DNA of 64,000 bases from NCBI GenBank assembly GCA_026389335.1, contig JAPLIB010000150.1:1-64000 (forward strand). Reading direction: 5' to 3'. The position numbers and the translations under genes were made by a program. The notes below the pieces were generated by a model. That model did no database searches. It was not told where the DNA came from and worked only from the letters and a program-made list of their open reading frames with translations. This DNA is from Cyanobacteriota bacterium. GTDB taxonomy: Bacteria; Cyanobacteriota; Cyanobacteriia; PCC-6307; Cyanobiaceae. Below, piece after piece: positions 50,995-57,479 of the stretch. Each line of letters begins with the position of its first letter. Within the stretch, counting starts at the first letter, position 1.

Positions 50995-51507
50995 TTGTAT
51001 ACCGCCTCCCCAGGACTGATCCCCGCGCTGAGCGGGCCGATCGGCGTGCTGCTGGTGCTGGTGTCGATCGCTGTGGTAACGGTGGCTTTCGACCGCTGCC
51101 GCTGGTGGATTCAGTGGTGGCGTCGGCGCCAGAGTCGCCGGCAGCAGTGGCGGCGCCAGCTGGAGGCTGGCCCCACCCAGGCCCGTCATCAGCTGGAGGA
51201 CTGGGATCGGGAGATTCGCTTTGGTGAGCCGCTGCTGCGGGCCGCCAGCCTCATCGCCCCGCTGCTGGGCTTGATCGGCACCGTGATCGGTCTGATGCAG
51301 GTGCTCTCGAGCCTTGGACCCCAGCTGGTCCTGCCCGCCGGAGCCAGTCTTCAGGGCTATGGCCAGGTGCTGCTGAGCACGGCCCTGGGATTGATCGTCA
51401 GCCTGGTGGCCACCACCACCCTGTCCCTGAACCAGGGTCTGTGCCAGTGGCAGATCGGCGAGTTGGAGCGCCAACTGCGGCGCCCATGGGAGTTGGTCCA
51501 GCCATGA
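50995..51507 (+). CDS. ExbB/TolQ/MotA-family protein
   Basis: 170 residues, apparent start TTG 50995. Three membrane helices: PIGVLLVLVSIAVVTVAFDR, AASLIAPLLGLIGTVIGLMQ and GQVLLSTALGLIVSLVATTT, with a basic cytoplasmic loop (WRRRQSRRQQWRRQLE). The pattern is that of ExbB. The Glu conserved at the start of the third helix (E176 in E. coli ExbB) is Gln here (GYGQVLLSTALG), while the Thr of the second helix remains. It is the first of four ATGA-linked genes and should be the pentameric motor part of a TonB-like complex. Confidence 0.8.
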   Translation: MYTASPGLIPALSGPIGVLLVLVSIAVVTVAFDRCRWWIQWWRRRQSRRQQWRRQLEAGPTQARHQLEDWDREIRFGEPLLRAASLIAPLLGLIGTVIGLMQVLSSLGPQLVLPAGASLQGYGQVLLSTALGLIVSLVATTTLSLNQGLCQWQIGELERQLRRPWELVQP

Positions 51508-51860
51508 GTCTGGCCCTGCAATGCCTGGTGGGACTCACCCTGCTGGTCTGCGGGGCCGTGGCTGCCCTGCCGGAGCTTGCCCGCGACCGGATCCCCCGCT
51601 CGCGGGCCCTGCAAAGCAGCCACGGGGGGGCCTCGCTGTGGCTGGTTCAGGCCCCAGCCCAGCGCTGGTATCTGGCCGGCCAGCCGATCGAAACCGGCCG
51701 ACTCGCCGCCCTGCTGCGCCACCAGGGTGGCAGGGCGGCCGTGCACTATCTGCCTTCGGCGGCCCTGCCGATCGGCGAGATCTCCAGCTCGCTGCGCTGG
51801 TTGCGCTCGCTCGGATCGGGCCCGGTGCTGCTGGAACTGCCGCCGTCAGCAGGGCCATGA
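51504..51860 (+). CDS. ExbD-like protein, first copy
   Basis: 118 residues from ATG 51504, overlapping the ExbB-like stop. One membrane helix (LALQCLVGLTLLVCGAVAAL) and a small periplasmic domain of the ExbD pattern: LWLVQAPAQRWYLAGQPIET, LLRHQGGRAAVHYLPSAALP, GEISSSLRWLRSLGSGPVLL. The membrane Asp essential in ExbD and TolR is absent. Similarity to ExbD is structural and weak; position between ExbB- and ExbD-like genes supports it. Confidence 0.6.
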   Translation: MSLALQCLVGLTLLVCGAVAALPELARDRIPRSRALQSSHGGASLWLVQAPAQRWYLAGQPIETGRLAALLRHQGGRAAVHYLPSAALPIGEISSSLRWLRSLGSGPVLLELPPSAGP

Positions 51861-52246
51861 CCCCCCGGCGCCTTCCCATCAACGCCAGCGGTGCTGAAGC
51901 GGTTGTGGGCCTGTCCGGTGCCATTGAGGGCTTCGCCGTGGGCTTGATGGCCACCGGGCTGGCCCTGCTGACCCTGGCGCTCACCGTGGTTCCCCAGCGC
52001 CTGATGCAGCGCCCCGCCGGTGCCGGGGTGATTCTGTTGCGGCTGGATTCCCGCGGCCAGCTGCGGCTTTGGAACCATGCCGTAGCGCCGCAGGACCTGG
52101 GCGCGGTGTTGAAGCGGCTGGCCCGGCAGCGCAGCGATCTGCGGCTGCGGCTGGTGAGCGATCCCCAGGTGCCCTGGGGGCAGGTGCAGCAGCTGGTGGC
52201 ACGGCTGGAAACCGGTCCGTTGCCCCTGGAGCTGCAACTGCCATGA
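51857..52246 (+). CDS. ExbD-like protein, second copy
   Basis: 129 residues from ATG 51857, overlapping the previous stop. A membrane helix (FAVGLMATGLALLTLALTVV) leads to a periplasmic domain close to ExbD: VILLRLDSRGQLRLWNHAVA, LGAVLKRLARQRSDLRLRLV, SDPQVPWGQVQQLVARLETG. Again no Asp stands in the membrane helix. Together with the previous gene it suggests a heteromeric ExbD pair. Confidence 0.7.
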   Translation: MTPRRLPINASGAEAVVGLSGAIEGFAVGLMATGLALLTLALTVVPQRLMQRPAGAGVILLRLDSRGQLRLWNHAVAPQDLGAVLKRLARQRSDLRLRLVSDPQVPWGQVQQLVARLETGPLPLELQLP

Positions 52247-53109
52247 AACGCTTCCGGCGCCTGGCGGCGACATGGCCCGGGCCGCTGCAACAGCGGCTGG
52301 CGGCTTCCACGCCACTGCTGTTCGCCTTGCTGGCTGCGGTGCTGCTCCATCTGCTGGTGCTCTCCTACCGCCAGCTGCGCGCCGAGCGGCCGCTCCAACC
52401 GCGTCCGCCGCAGCTGGCCGATGACAGCCCCGAACTGCTGCGGTTCAGTCGCCGCCAATCATTGGAGGAGTCGCTGCTGACCGTGCCGCTGCCGCCGCTG
52501 AGCAGCCTGCCGCCCGAGCCTGCTGTGCGATTCCTGCCGCCATCCTCCGGCCTTGCTTGGGCGGCTCAGAGTCCGGAAGAGCGCCGGCCTGGGGCTGGCC
52601 AACCGCGGATTCCAGGGCTTTCGGCCGCTGGGAGGGCCGTCCCGGTGCCGCGCCGGGGCCGGCGCCCGCTGCCACCGGGGACCATGGCGTCCACCCCAGC
52701 CGCGGCAACCATCAGCGCGAGTGCCACCTCTGGGCCCGATGCCGCCCTGGCCGCCCTGGAGCTGCTGCGCAGCCGGAGTTGGCCTGATGGCGAGGAGCCT
52801 CCGGCAGGGGGCGATTCCGCTGAGAGCGACATTCAGTTGTGGCGACCCGGGGCTGAAGCCGCTGAGCCCTATCGCCGGATCTGGGGGCGGGCCGCAATGG
52901 TGCCAGGCTTCCCGGGCCGGGCCAGCGGCCTGCCGGCCGATGTGGTTCTGCGCCGACTCCCCCTGGCGGCCCTGAGCCGGGGCCAGGGGTTTGCTCTGCG
53001 CCGTCAGGGAGTGCTTCTGGATGACCGGCTGCTGTTGCTCTGGCCCGATGACACTGTTCTCTGGCTGCTGCAGGCCCCTCTACAAGCGAATGGGCCGAGG
53101 CCCCGTTGA
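52243..53109 (+). CDS. TonB-like single-helix envelope protein
   Basis: 288 residues from ATG 52243, overlapping the ExbD-like stop. One membrane helix (PLLFALLAAVLLHLLVLSYR) carries a His in the position and spacing seen in TonB anchors. A Pro/Arg-rich middle (VPVPRRGRRPLPPG) could span the periplasm; the C-terminal 55 residues (VVLRRLPLAALSRGQGFALR, VLLDDRLLLLWPDDTVLW) form a small domain that does not show the TonB C-terminal motif. TonB-like is inferred mainly from operon position and layout. Confidence 0.6.
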   Translation: MKRFRRLAATWPGPLQQRLAASTPLLFALLAAVLLHLLVLSYRQLRAERPLQPRPPQLADDSPELLRFSRRQSLEESLLTVPLPPLSSLPPEPAVRFLPPSSGLAWAAQSPEERRPGAGQPRIPGLSAAGRAVPVPRRGRRPLPPGTMASTPAAATISASATSGPDAALAALELLRSRSWPDGEEPPAGGDSAESDIQLWRPGAEAAEPYRRIWGRAAMVPGFPGRASGLPADVVLRRLPLAALSRGQGFALRRQGVLLDDRLLLLWPDDTVLWLLQAPLQANGPRPR

Positions 53110-54789: not shown

Positions 54790-56106
54790 TCAGCCTCCCA
54801 CCGGTAGCAGCAGTTCCAGCCGAGCCCCCCCGTCTGGATGGTTGCCGGCCTGGACGCGACCGCCGTGGGTGAGGGCGATCTGCTGGACGATCGCCAGGCC
54901 CAGACCACTGCCGCCCCGGCGACTGCGCACCCGGGAGGGGTCGCCGCGGTAGAAGCGCTCGAACAGGCGTTCCTGGTCTTCCTCGCTGAGTCCGGGCCCT
55001 TCGTCCCGCACCGTCAGCAGACACCACTGGTCCGTGGACTGCACCCGCACCCACACGCAGCCCCCGTCCGGGCTGTAGCGCAGGGCGTTGTCGATCAGGT
55101 TGAGCAAGGCCCGATGCAGCAGCGACCGATCCCCCTGAATCTGAATCTCACCGCCACCACCACCACCACTGCCACCACCGCCGTCGCCACCGGAGTCTGG
55201 GTGGCTGTCGTGTGGGCGATTCAGCGGTTCCGTGCCGGGGGCACTGGGGTTGGCGTTGTCATCGGCAGTGGCGTTGTCATGGGCCTGGACGACGGTCTTG
55301 TCGCTGGTGTTGGTTGCCGTGGGGGCCTCGCTATTGCCGCTGCTCTGGCTCAAGCCCTGGCTCCGGCCGACCACCTTCAGCTCGAGCCGGATGTGGCGTT
55401 CCTCCGCCAGGGGCCGCAGCCCAACCCACACCTGCTGCACCAGCTGCGGCATGTCGACCTCGGAGCGCCTCAGGCCATCCCGGGGCAGCGTGTTTTCCAG
55501 GCGCGACAGTTGCAGCAGGTCGCCCACCAGCTCCTGCAGCCGCAGCAGTTCTCGCTGCAAGCGTTCCACCAGCACCGCATTGCCGCTGTTCACCTGGGCA
55601 GCCAGGCTGTCACCCACCAGCAGCAGGGCTGTCAGGGGGGTCTTGAGTTCGTGGGCCACATCGCTCACCCAGCGCTCCTGCTGTTCGAGCTGGGCTTCCA
55701 GGGAGCGGCGGCTCTGCAGCACCAGGGCCACCCAGCCGCCTTCGCCGGGCAGGGCGAAGAGCACCAGCTCCTGGCCTGAGCGCTGCCATTCCAGGCGCTG
55801 GGTGCGTTGGCGCAGGCGGGCATCACGAATCAATTCAGTCAGTTCCGGTGCCGGGCACACCCGCGTCAACGGCGGCGTGTGCATCAACGCCGCCCCCAGC
55901 ACATCCAGCAGTCGTTCAGCCCGGTGATTGATCAGAATCACCTGGTCGGCCGGATCAACGATCAGCCAGCCGCTGGGACTGGAGTTGAGCCAGCGGATCA
56001 GCTGGGTGCGCTCCAGCCGGTTGAAGGGCCTACGGCCCGGACCCCGTGGCCGCGGCAACAGCAGCCCGATGCCGAGTCCCAGCAGCGCTGCCAGAAGGAA
56101 ACCCAC
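54790..56106 (-). CDS. phoR: Phosphate sensor histidine kinase PhoR (SphS)
   Basis: 438 residues. One N-terminal helix (GFLLAALLGLGIGLLLP), a PAS-like domain (WLIVDPADQVILINHRAERL), then the kinase core: H-box WVSDVAHELKTPLTALLLVG, N-box LLNLIDNALRYSPDGG, G-boxes VRDEGPGLS and GSGLGLAIVQQIA. About 90 residues rich in Asn, Asp, Ser and Gly are inserted in the ATPase domain ahead of the N-box, which is unusual. It follows phoB without a gap; the ptrA-like gene precedes both. Confidence 0.88.
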   Translation of the reverse strand: MGFLLAALLGLGIGLLLPRPRGPGRRPFNRLERTQLIRWLNSSPSGWLIVDPADQVILINHRAERLLDVLGAALMHTPPLTRVCPAPELTELIRDARLRQRTQRLEWQRSGQELVLFALPGEGGWVALVLQSRRSLEAQLEQQERWVSDVAHELKTPLTALLLVGDSLAAQVNSGNAVLVERLQRELLRLQELVGDLLQLSRLENTLPRDGLRRSEVDMPQLVQQVWVGLRPLAEERHIRLELKVVGRSQGLSQSSGNSEAPTATNTSDKTVVQAHDNATADDNANPSAPGTEPLNRPHDSHPDSGGDGGGGSGGGGGGEIQIQGDRSLLHRALLNLIDNALRYSPDGGCVWVRVQSTDQWCLLTVRDEGPGLSEEDQERLFERFYRGDPSRVRSRRGGSGLGLAIVQQIALTHGGRVQAGNHPDGGARLELLLPVGG

Positions 56107-56802
56107 TCAGCCAAACCGGTAGCCGAAGCCCCGCACGGTGATCAGATGGACCGGGGCCGAGGGACTGGCTTCGAGTTTTTCGCGCAGCCAGCGGATGTGG
56201 ACATCGACGGTTTTGCTGTCGCCGAAATAGTCCATACCCCAAACCTGCTCCAGCAATTTGTCGCGGCTCCAGACCCTGCGGGGATGCTGCATGAACAGCT
56301 CCAGCAGCCTGTACTCCTTGGGGGAAAGATTCACCTCCAGTCCATCGCGGGTGACGCGACATTCGTCCGGGTAGAGCCGCAGGTTGGCATGTTCCAGCAG
56401 CAAGGGAGCCGCCTCGGTTGCCGGTTGGCTGCGGCGCAGCAGGGCCCGGCAGCGGGCCACCAGTTCGCGCATGCCGAAGGGCTTGATCAAGTAGTCATCC
56501 GCACCCACCTCCAGGCCCACCACCCGATCGGTCTCGCTGTCGCGGGCACTCACCATCAGGATGGGCGTGCGATTGCCGGCACTACGCAACTGGCGGCAGA
56601 GATCCAACCCGCCGAGTCCCGGCAGCATCAGGTCAAGCACCACCAATGCAAAGCCGCCCTCGGCGTTGGCCCGCGTGAGGGTGTCGAGGGCATCGCGGCC
56701 ATTGCCGCAGGCAGTCACCGCAAAGCCTTCCAGGGCCAGGGCATCACGAATGGTCTCGCGGATCGTTTCATCGTCTTCAACGACCAGCAGGGAAGGTTGC
56801 AT
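56107..56802 (-). CDS. phoB: Phosphate response regulator PhoB (SphR)
   Basis: 231 residues from ATG 56802. Receiver: LLVVEDDETIRETIRDALAL, phospho-Asp in FALVVLDLMLPGLGGLDLCR, Lys in DDYLIKPFGMREL. The DNA-binding half has LSPKEYRLLELFMQHPRRVW, KTVDVHIRWLREKLEA and TVRGFGYRFG. Sequence and neighbours fit PhoB/SphR, the activator that binds Pho boxes on phosphate shortage. Its stop abuts the phoR start. Confidence 0.9.
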   Translation of the reverse strand: MQPSLLVVEDDETIRETIRDALALEGFAVTACGNGRDALDTLTRANAEGGFALVVLDLMLPGLGGLDLCRQLRSAGNRTPILMVSARDSETDRVVGLEVGADDYLIKPFGMRELVARCRALLRRSQPATEAAPLLLEHANLRLYPDECRVTRDGLEVNLSPKEYRLLELFMQHPRRVWSRDKLLEQVWGMDYFGDSKTVDVHIRWLREKLEASPSAPVHLITVRGFGYRFG

Positions 56803-56846
56803 CCCACCATTGTGGGTCGGCAGGTGGTCGGTCCAGAAGAGGGTGA

Positions 56847-57479
56847 TCACCGGGGGGGCAGATGGCTGATCACCAGGCGGCGTTGCCCATCGAGACTCAG
56901 CCAGCCTTCCTGGCGCAGCACGCCGATCACCCGAGTGACGGTGACGCGGGTGGTGCCAAGGGCGCTGGCCACCTCCTGGTGGGTGAGCCGTAGGTCCAGC
57001 CGCAGCCCCTGGTCACAGGCCTGTCCATATTCGGTGGCCAGAAGCTCCAGAAAGCCCCGCACCCGTTCTTCCACCCGGCGCAGGCCCATCAGCGCCAGCA
57101 GCGACTGCGACTGGCGATAGCGCTTGGTCACCGCCTGCAGCATCGCCACAGCGAGGCTGGCATCGGAACGGATTTCCTCCAGGCTCAGGCACAGCAGGTC
57201 GGTGTCGCAGAGCGTGCGGGCCTCGAAGGCCTCCACATCGGTGAGCGGTTCGCCGAACGGTTCACTCGGACCGGCCAGTCCCAGCAGCAGGTCGTCGCCG
57301 TGGATGGTGATCGCTCCGAGCTTGACCATGCCGCGCACCACCAGCCAGATGCTGTTGCGCAGCATCGGCACCTGACTGCCGGCCGCCAGATGCACCAGGG
57401 TGCGCTTGCGGTAGCTGGCCTCGAGGAATTCGCGGAAAGCTCCGCTGCCGGCAGCGCCACGGGACGGCGTGAACACCAT
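56847..57479 (-). CDS. ptrA: CRP-family regulator, PtrA-like
   Basis: 210 residues. A cyclic-nucleotide-binding-like barrel (SQVPMLRNSIWLVVRGMVKL, GPSEPFGEPLTDVEAFEART) and helix LAVAMLQAVTKRYRQSQSLL precede a CRP-type helix-turn-helix (LTHQEVASALGTTRVTVTRV). The residues that bind cAMP in CRP are not kept. It lies directly before phoB-phoR and has a Pho-box-like repeat upstream, as for PtrA of marine Synechococcus, a second-tier phosphate regulator. The symbol is inferred from memory of that family and this position. Confidence 0.75.
   Translation of the reverse strand: MVFTPSRGAAGSGAFREFLEASYRKRTLVHLAAGSQVPMLRNSIWLVVRGMVKLGAITIHGDDLLLGLAGPSEPFGEPLTDVEAFEARTLCDTDLLCLSLEEIRSDASLAVAMLQAVTKRYRQSQSLLALMGLRRVEERVRGFLELLATEYGQACDQGLRLDLRLTHQEVASALGTTRVTVTRVIGVLRQEGWLSLDGQRRLVISHLPPR

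Follow-up and report, generated by a model that had tools for sequence, protein, structure and literature searches.

An aspartate on the axle counts as the defining part of 5:2 ion-driven motors. In MotA, ExbB and TolQ, a ring of essential threonines is described as lining the lumen near this aspartate (PMC12204202). A first-helix serine is reported to contact the histidine of TonB or TolA in the E. coli complexes (PMC12215075), and the D-box of TonB, directly before the polyproline stretch, is described as held between two ExbD protomers (PMC10907165). The AglR-AglQ-AglS system of Myxococcus combines one ring gene with two MotB/TolR-like genes; the conserved aspartate is described for AglQ as well as for AglS (PMC9389320). 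In GldL-GldM of Bacteroidota, the essential acid of the stator is placed on the ring protein, at E49 of GldL (PMC8986121). Here we describe a four-gene relative of the proton-driven Ton and Tol envelope motors that has lost the aspartate from both axle proteins and is carried by many small freshwater and marine cyanobacteria. It lies in a 64,000-nucleotide stretch of cyanobacterial DNA, hereafter the window, and is a real, conserved and derived variant of the ExbBD-TonB kind. Like the Agl system it joins one ring gene to two axle-type genes; unlike AglQ and AglS, neither of these has the aspartate.

The operon spans positions 50995 to 53109 on the plus strand and is tightly packed, in the order ExbB / ExbD-like / ExbD-like / TonB-like. 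The ExbB/TolQ-like ring protein, B (50995–51507, 170 residues), begins at a TTG codon that occurs at the same position in seven relatives. It is followed by two ExbD-like axle proteins, D1 (51504–51860, 118 residues), whose helix runs from residue 3, and D2 (51857–52246, 129 residues), and by T (52243–53109, 288 residues), a TonB-like transducer by architecture. All three junctions are ATGA overlaps (51504–51507, 51857–51860 and 52243–52246), in line with the 4-bp overlaps given in the first-pass annotation. The window's own genome (4.05 Mb, 171 contigs) contains a single PF01618 match, which is the window's B, and a search of it for the ExbD family, PF02472, found no match at E ≤ 0.001.

B is a true member of the MotA/TolQ/ExbB family. 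In the profile search that the first-pass annotation had proposed, its match to PF01618 (MotA_ExbB, E = 8.2e-13) scored 48.7 bits against a cut-off of 22.9. Three hydrophobic helices are evident by inspection. Searched against the PDB, the B profile found TolQ and ExbB (best five matches, E = 6.8e-7 to 3.3e-6), with TolQ as the best matches. In the profile alignment, the segments GTV and STA pair with GTV and ATA of TolQ, and GYGQ lies opposite GIAE of TolQ and ExbB, which puts Gln124 at the site of the third-helix glutamate and bears out the earlier reading that glutamine replaces the family residue there. Across 73 B rows, one of them (L167) with a broken frame, this ring site was Gln in 39, Asp in 13, Glu in nine, Arg in four, Lys, Met and Thr in two each, and Leu and Ala in one each; five of the nine glutamates belong to the acid-bearing sister operons described below. 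Residues Thr96 and Thr129 align with the pore threonines of TolQ, which we take to be those of the essential ring, and are kept in 70 of 73 rows (the other three have Ser) and in 71 of 73, respectively. Ser24 of the first helix is invariant in the B alignment and pairs with Ser28 of TolQ, where the alignment is weak (3.5 bits). The tryptophan that shares the serine–histidine contact in the E. coli complexes is not conserved in B.

Neither axle protein reached the Pfam cut-off for ExbD: D1 had no match to PF02472, and D2 scored 12.1 bits against 25.4. Seven D2 genes of the genus match PF02472 at E ≤ 1e-3, yet also stay under the cut-off. By hhalign, both proteins matched 52 cyanobacterial ExbDs that had been chosen by their Asp-bearing pattern (D1, E = 4.1e-8; D2, E = 2.2e-8), and they matched each other (E = 2e-7). 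The D2 profile also found ExbD in the PDB (E = 0.0012). An AF2 model of D1, built from 10 sequences with a modest mean pLDDT of 74, was compared with the PDB by Foldseek; the best six matches were all ExbD or TolR, with a probability of 1.00 and E-values from 2.4e-3 to 2e-2, and none reached E ≤ 0.001. The ExbD/TolR periplasmic fold and homology are thus indicated for D1 by fold, for D2 by sequence and for both by hhalign. On sequence comparison, and for D1 on a predicted model as well, the two proteins are true ExbD relatives.

As read from an alignment of 35 and a motif scan, T comprises one transmembrane helix with His36, a conserved DDSPELLRFSR segment, a proline-rich linker and a C-terminal domain. 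A membrane anchor with a polar residue (in the genus rows inspected, His or Asn), a segment after the membrane and a proline-rich linker are the features of a TonB/TolA-like transducer. The segment reads D-D-[TS]-P-E-L-L-x-F-S-R in the genus; of 70 loci at which T was matched, 41 show the strict pattern and most of the others, by eye, looser variants. The segment occupies the same place as the D-box of TonB. The C-terminal domain had no Pfam match and no credible PDB match, either by sequence or by the fold of a low-confidence AF2 model (mean pLDDT 62), and Pfam detected no TonB_C domain in T or in the 37 genus genomes searched. Overall, the operon resembles the Ton system in its ring family, in the ExbD-like periplasmic fold, in a membrane-anchored, proline-rich transducer and in a segment at the place described for the D-box (PMC10907165), but differs from it in lacking the Glu and Asp residues, in having two dissimilar ExbDs, and in that no TonB_C domain and no Plug receptors of the genus were found. 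With TolQ-TolR-TolA it shares an envelope-bridging layout and a ring protein whose best PDB matches are TolQ; unlike Tol-Pal, it lacks the acids, and neither a known domain in T nor an OmpA/Pal match in its own genome was found.

The arrangement is conserved well beyond the window. A PF01618 match of the window's kind occurred in 35 of 41 same-genus relatives, and all 35 same-genus loci keep the order B-D1-D2-T, with contig ends cutting T of L043 and B of L049. Six of the 41 genomes had no PF01618 match, and three of these (G020, G027 and G037) again gave no match to the family's own B profile. Run against 251 family genomes, the B profile gave matches in 66, in some cases to ordinary ExbB genes. 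Of 40 family loci fetched (L133–L172), 37 are the operon, 32 in acid-less and five in acid-bearing form; D2 and T of L154 lie outside the stretch, and T of L169 falls under the profile threshold, with a TonB-like frame following D2. The acid-less form occurs in ten genera, the window's and nine more (g1, g5, g9, g60, g64, g67, g75, g78, g81 and g89). The five acid-bearing operons, with Glu, Asp and Asp, occur in the sister genera g54, g62 and g74, and carry the motifs GI[AS]EVL in B, PLIDVLLV in D1 and PL[VA]D[LV]LLVL in D2. In one of them, L164, B and D1 score over the Pfam cut-offs and D2 under, at 18.3 bits. Searched across the class (291 genomes, of which few belong to the family), the D2 profile gave seven matches, three of them in the family (E of 1e-27 or better). 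The other four, weak and from outside the family (E = 2e-7 to 2.9e-6), turned out to be standard ExbD loci bearing Asp or Asp/Thr, and were rejected. One locus, L032 (CALPNT020000009.1), is titled as a Bifidobacterium breve MAG and holds the cyanobacterial operon at 81% identity; the label of this record looks wrong.

The suspicion that these are unrelated membrane proteins in an ExbB/ExbD look-alike order can draw on the missing Pfam matches of D1 and T and the sub-cut-off score of D2, but is refuted by the PF01618 score of B, by the hhalign and fold matches and by the textbook motifs in the operon of the sister genera; we give it almost no credence.

The profile alignment of D2 with ExbD covers the periplasmic part only, so the Asp sites were placed from the homologous operons and by reading the helix without gaps. 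In the acid-bearing sisters, the aspartate of D2 lies 14 residues before the proline at the helix end, a position held by Ala32 in the window; the D1 site, anchored in the same way 13 residues before the helix-end proline, is Gly10. We then counted the 64 acid-less operons in which B, D1 and D2 were readable. Dropped beforehand were L049 (B cut by a contig end), L154 (D2 outside the stretch), L163 (B split) and L167 (stops), and L152 was retained, as its B, D1 and D2 are open although T is in two frames. Other ExbB-family genes at L076 and L079–L082 were excluded, and G254 was also outside the locus set. With the five acid-bearing sisters set apart, no operon had an acid at either Asp site (0/64): the D1 site was Gly in 36, Ala in 21, Val in four, Ser in two and Leu in one, and the D2 site was Ala in 34, Ser in 16 and Gly in 14. 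Whether relatives share the missing acids, a check raised by the first-pass annotation, can be answered in two parts: the absence of both aspartates is shared by all 64, and the ring-site glutamine by 39 of the 73 B rows.

That annotation had also held that neither ExbD-like helix contains the essential aspartate, which is correct for Gly10 and Ala32 but leaves out Glu24 of D2, an acid where the helix begins on its N-terminal side. Glu24 precedes the Asp site by 8 residues, or about two turns, and the proline by 22. We considered Glu24 as the ExbD aspartate itself and rejected it, as the sisters' aspartate, anchored on the proline, falls at Ala32. An acid at this border position (20–24 residues before the helix-end proline) is found in 44 of the 64 operons. 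All 35 counted operons of the window's genus, the window's own included, have it, in a surrounding N-terminus that varies; several genera lack it. B has Asp or Glu at the ring site in 17 of 64. Taking the two positions together, 57 of 64 operons carry an acid at one or both, and seven (L137 and L157–L162) carry none at any site examined. An acid within the D1 helix was seen once in the 64, in L063 (G030), the most divergent member of the genus. This locus has a ring-site Glu in B in addition to the Glu inside the D1 helix, and its D2 has Asn at the border position with a Glu two residues earlier; it is a possible case of acids shifted between subunits.

Given the border acid of D2 and the ring-site Asp or Glu of B, a proton route could survive. 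The motor would then still be run by protons through a relocated acid, either the Glu or Asp at the start of the D2 helix or, in other genera, the ring-site Asp of B, in a manner like that described for GldL-GldM. Such a motor would account for an acid at one of these sites in 57 of 64 operons and for the constancy of the border acid in the genus despite the variable residues around it, and a working ion path would likewise be compatible with the conserved pore threonines. However, seven operons have no acid at any examined site, the border acid sits about two turns from the Asp site and is lost in several genera, and the ring site tolerates Q, D, E, R, K, M, T, L and A, whereas the acid of GldL is strictly conserved. 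We regard proton drive by a relocated acid as rather unlikely, and as the stronger of the competitors to a complex that no longer uses protons in the known way.

In a tree of ExbB sequences, the 48 acid-less rows fell on one side of a branch (SH-aLRT 99), adjoining the five acid-bearing rows, and the two sets together stood apart from 18 other cyanobacterial ExbBs (100). The tree held 71 rows, with 48 of 68 acid-less rows used, and was made by a quick method that flagged long branches, L113 being the worst. As the acid-less ExbBs form one clade, the simplest account is that the acids were lost once, in the common ancestor of part of the family; the acid-bearing form is probably ancestral, judging from the wider family. 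The first-pass annotation had allowed that homologues keeping Glu and Asp would point to local decay. Such homologues do exist, in five operons of three sister genera, but the acid-less operons constitute a conserved clade rather than an instance of local decay.

Selection on the operon is real but loose. Over 159 close pairs, the median dN/dS was 0.264 for B, 0.304 for D1, 0.418 for D2 and 0.463 for T, with at least 158 of 159 pairs below 1 for each gene; a neighbouring cysK-like gene gave 0.064 in 156 of the same pairs. Distant pairs gave medians of 0.47, 0.56, 0.55 and 0.72 for B, D1, D2 and T, and maxima of 1.5 for D1 and 1.2 for D2, but these values are saturated and superseded by the close pairs. 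Three damaged copies were found: L167 (G182) has stops, L163 (G257) a split B and L152 (G214) T in two frames, reflecting either decay or sequencing errors in single genomes. Invariant residues are present in all four proteins. A lesser rival explanation takes the operon for a relic on which selection has relaxed, its acids lost once the motor was no longer needed and its genes slowly disappearing. The dN/dS of 0.26–0.46 against that of the cysK-like neighbour, the six genus genomes of 41 with no PF01618 match, the three damaged copies and the failure to find Plug receptors would all suit a relic; but the remaining loci of the 72 checked, across ten acid-less genera, have no break except at contig ends, and near-universal dN/dS below 1 and invariant residues in every protein argue for retention. 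We think slow disappearance improbable.

The Plug domain of TonB-dependent receptors (PF07715) was not found in any of 42 genus genomes (41 relatives and the window's own), and was found in 18 of 251 family genomes. Only one of these 18, G108, carries an acid-less operon (L135); it also carries another ExbB locus, L172, which shares a contig with one of its Plug genes. None of the five genomes with acid-bearing operons was among the 18, assuming that the same family sample was searched. In the window's own genome, no match to the Pal/OmpA domain (PF00691) was found. With no receptors found, no OmpA match in its own genome and no conserved neighbour that we read as pointing there, roles in TonB-receptor transport, Tol-Pal function and gliding were considered and rejected. 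Beyond the gene next to the operon, the window encodes a sensor kinase, a response regulator and a Crp-type regulator (54790–57479); by eye, similar genes follow the operon in several other genera as well. The genes noted above at L076 (G006) and L079–L082 belong to the MotA_ExbB family, several with about 450–550 codons, and are weakly or not B-like.

Two ExbD-like subunits in one operon had been called uncommon, a view that does not hold for cyanobacteria: read by eye from coordinates, tandem ExbD genes occur in 12 of 38 same-class genomes, and also in G048. Among 13 such pairs whose sites were read, ten combine an Asp with an Asn or Thr, and three have two Asp. Two further pairs are Asp/Thr, bringing the one-Asp pairs to 12 of 15 (loci L113–L116, L119–L121, L123–L125, L175 and L176); none of the 15 pairs is without an Asp. 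More broadly, 72 distinct ExbD reading frames from other cyanobacterial loci had Asp in 62, Asn in eight and Thr in two, and 57 ExbB-like frames from fetched cyanobacterial loci had Glu in 53 and Gln in two, with two not read. The one-Asp pairs suggest heterodimeric axles with a single acid. Like these operons, the window's operon has an ExbB adjoining two ExbDs; unlike them, it has no Asp in either. The half-charged axle is frequent in cyanobacteria, and the window's operon would stand at the uncharged end of a series, although by the ExbB tree it is a separate line of descent from the tandem-ExbD operons. Among titles and the openings of abstracts, we found no paper on acid-less ExbD in cyanobacteria; this search left most of the subscription literature uncovered and does not prove absence.

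True homologues that lack the Glu and both Asp cannot use the known Asp-based proton coupling. The first-pass annotation had made this conditional on homology, which our comparisons support. We put at about one half the probability that the operon encodes a retained pseudo-stator that does not use protons in the known way and has a different task in the envelope. Its ancestor would have been a cyanobacterial ExbB-ExbD-ExbD-TonB-like motor, probably a 5:1:1 assembly in which five B surround a single copy each of D1 and D2, with T riding on B. The line lost the proton-binding Asp from each axle helix, along with the conservation of the ring Glu, and was then kept as a four-protein complex that would have no proton-driven stroke. 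By analogy with the grip of ExbD on the D-box of TonB, the periplasmic domains of D1 and D2 might hold the DDSPELLRFSR segment of T, and the complex could serve through T as a passive or regulated bridge from the inner membrane to the cell wall or outer membrane. More specifically, and tentatively, we propose an evolutionarily stable pseudo-motor within the ExbBD/TolQR/MotAB superfamily of rotary stators: both axle aspartates lost, perhaps in one step, and the envelope-spanning complex of four proteins kept across ten genera as a proton-independent tether, a tension sensor or a rotor driven by a partner.

If this is true, the operon would extend the one-Asp ExbD pairs seen in other cyanobacteria into a series that runs from two acids through one to zero. 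A natural acid-less family beside acid-bearing sisters offers a ready comparison for the roles of ring and axle beyond protons, as pseudokinases do for kinases, and may represent an envelope-bridging system for picocyanobacteria that lack TonB-dependent receptors.
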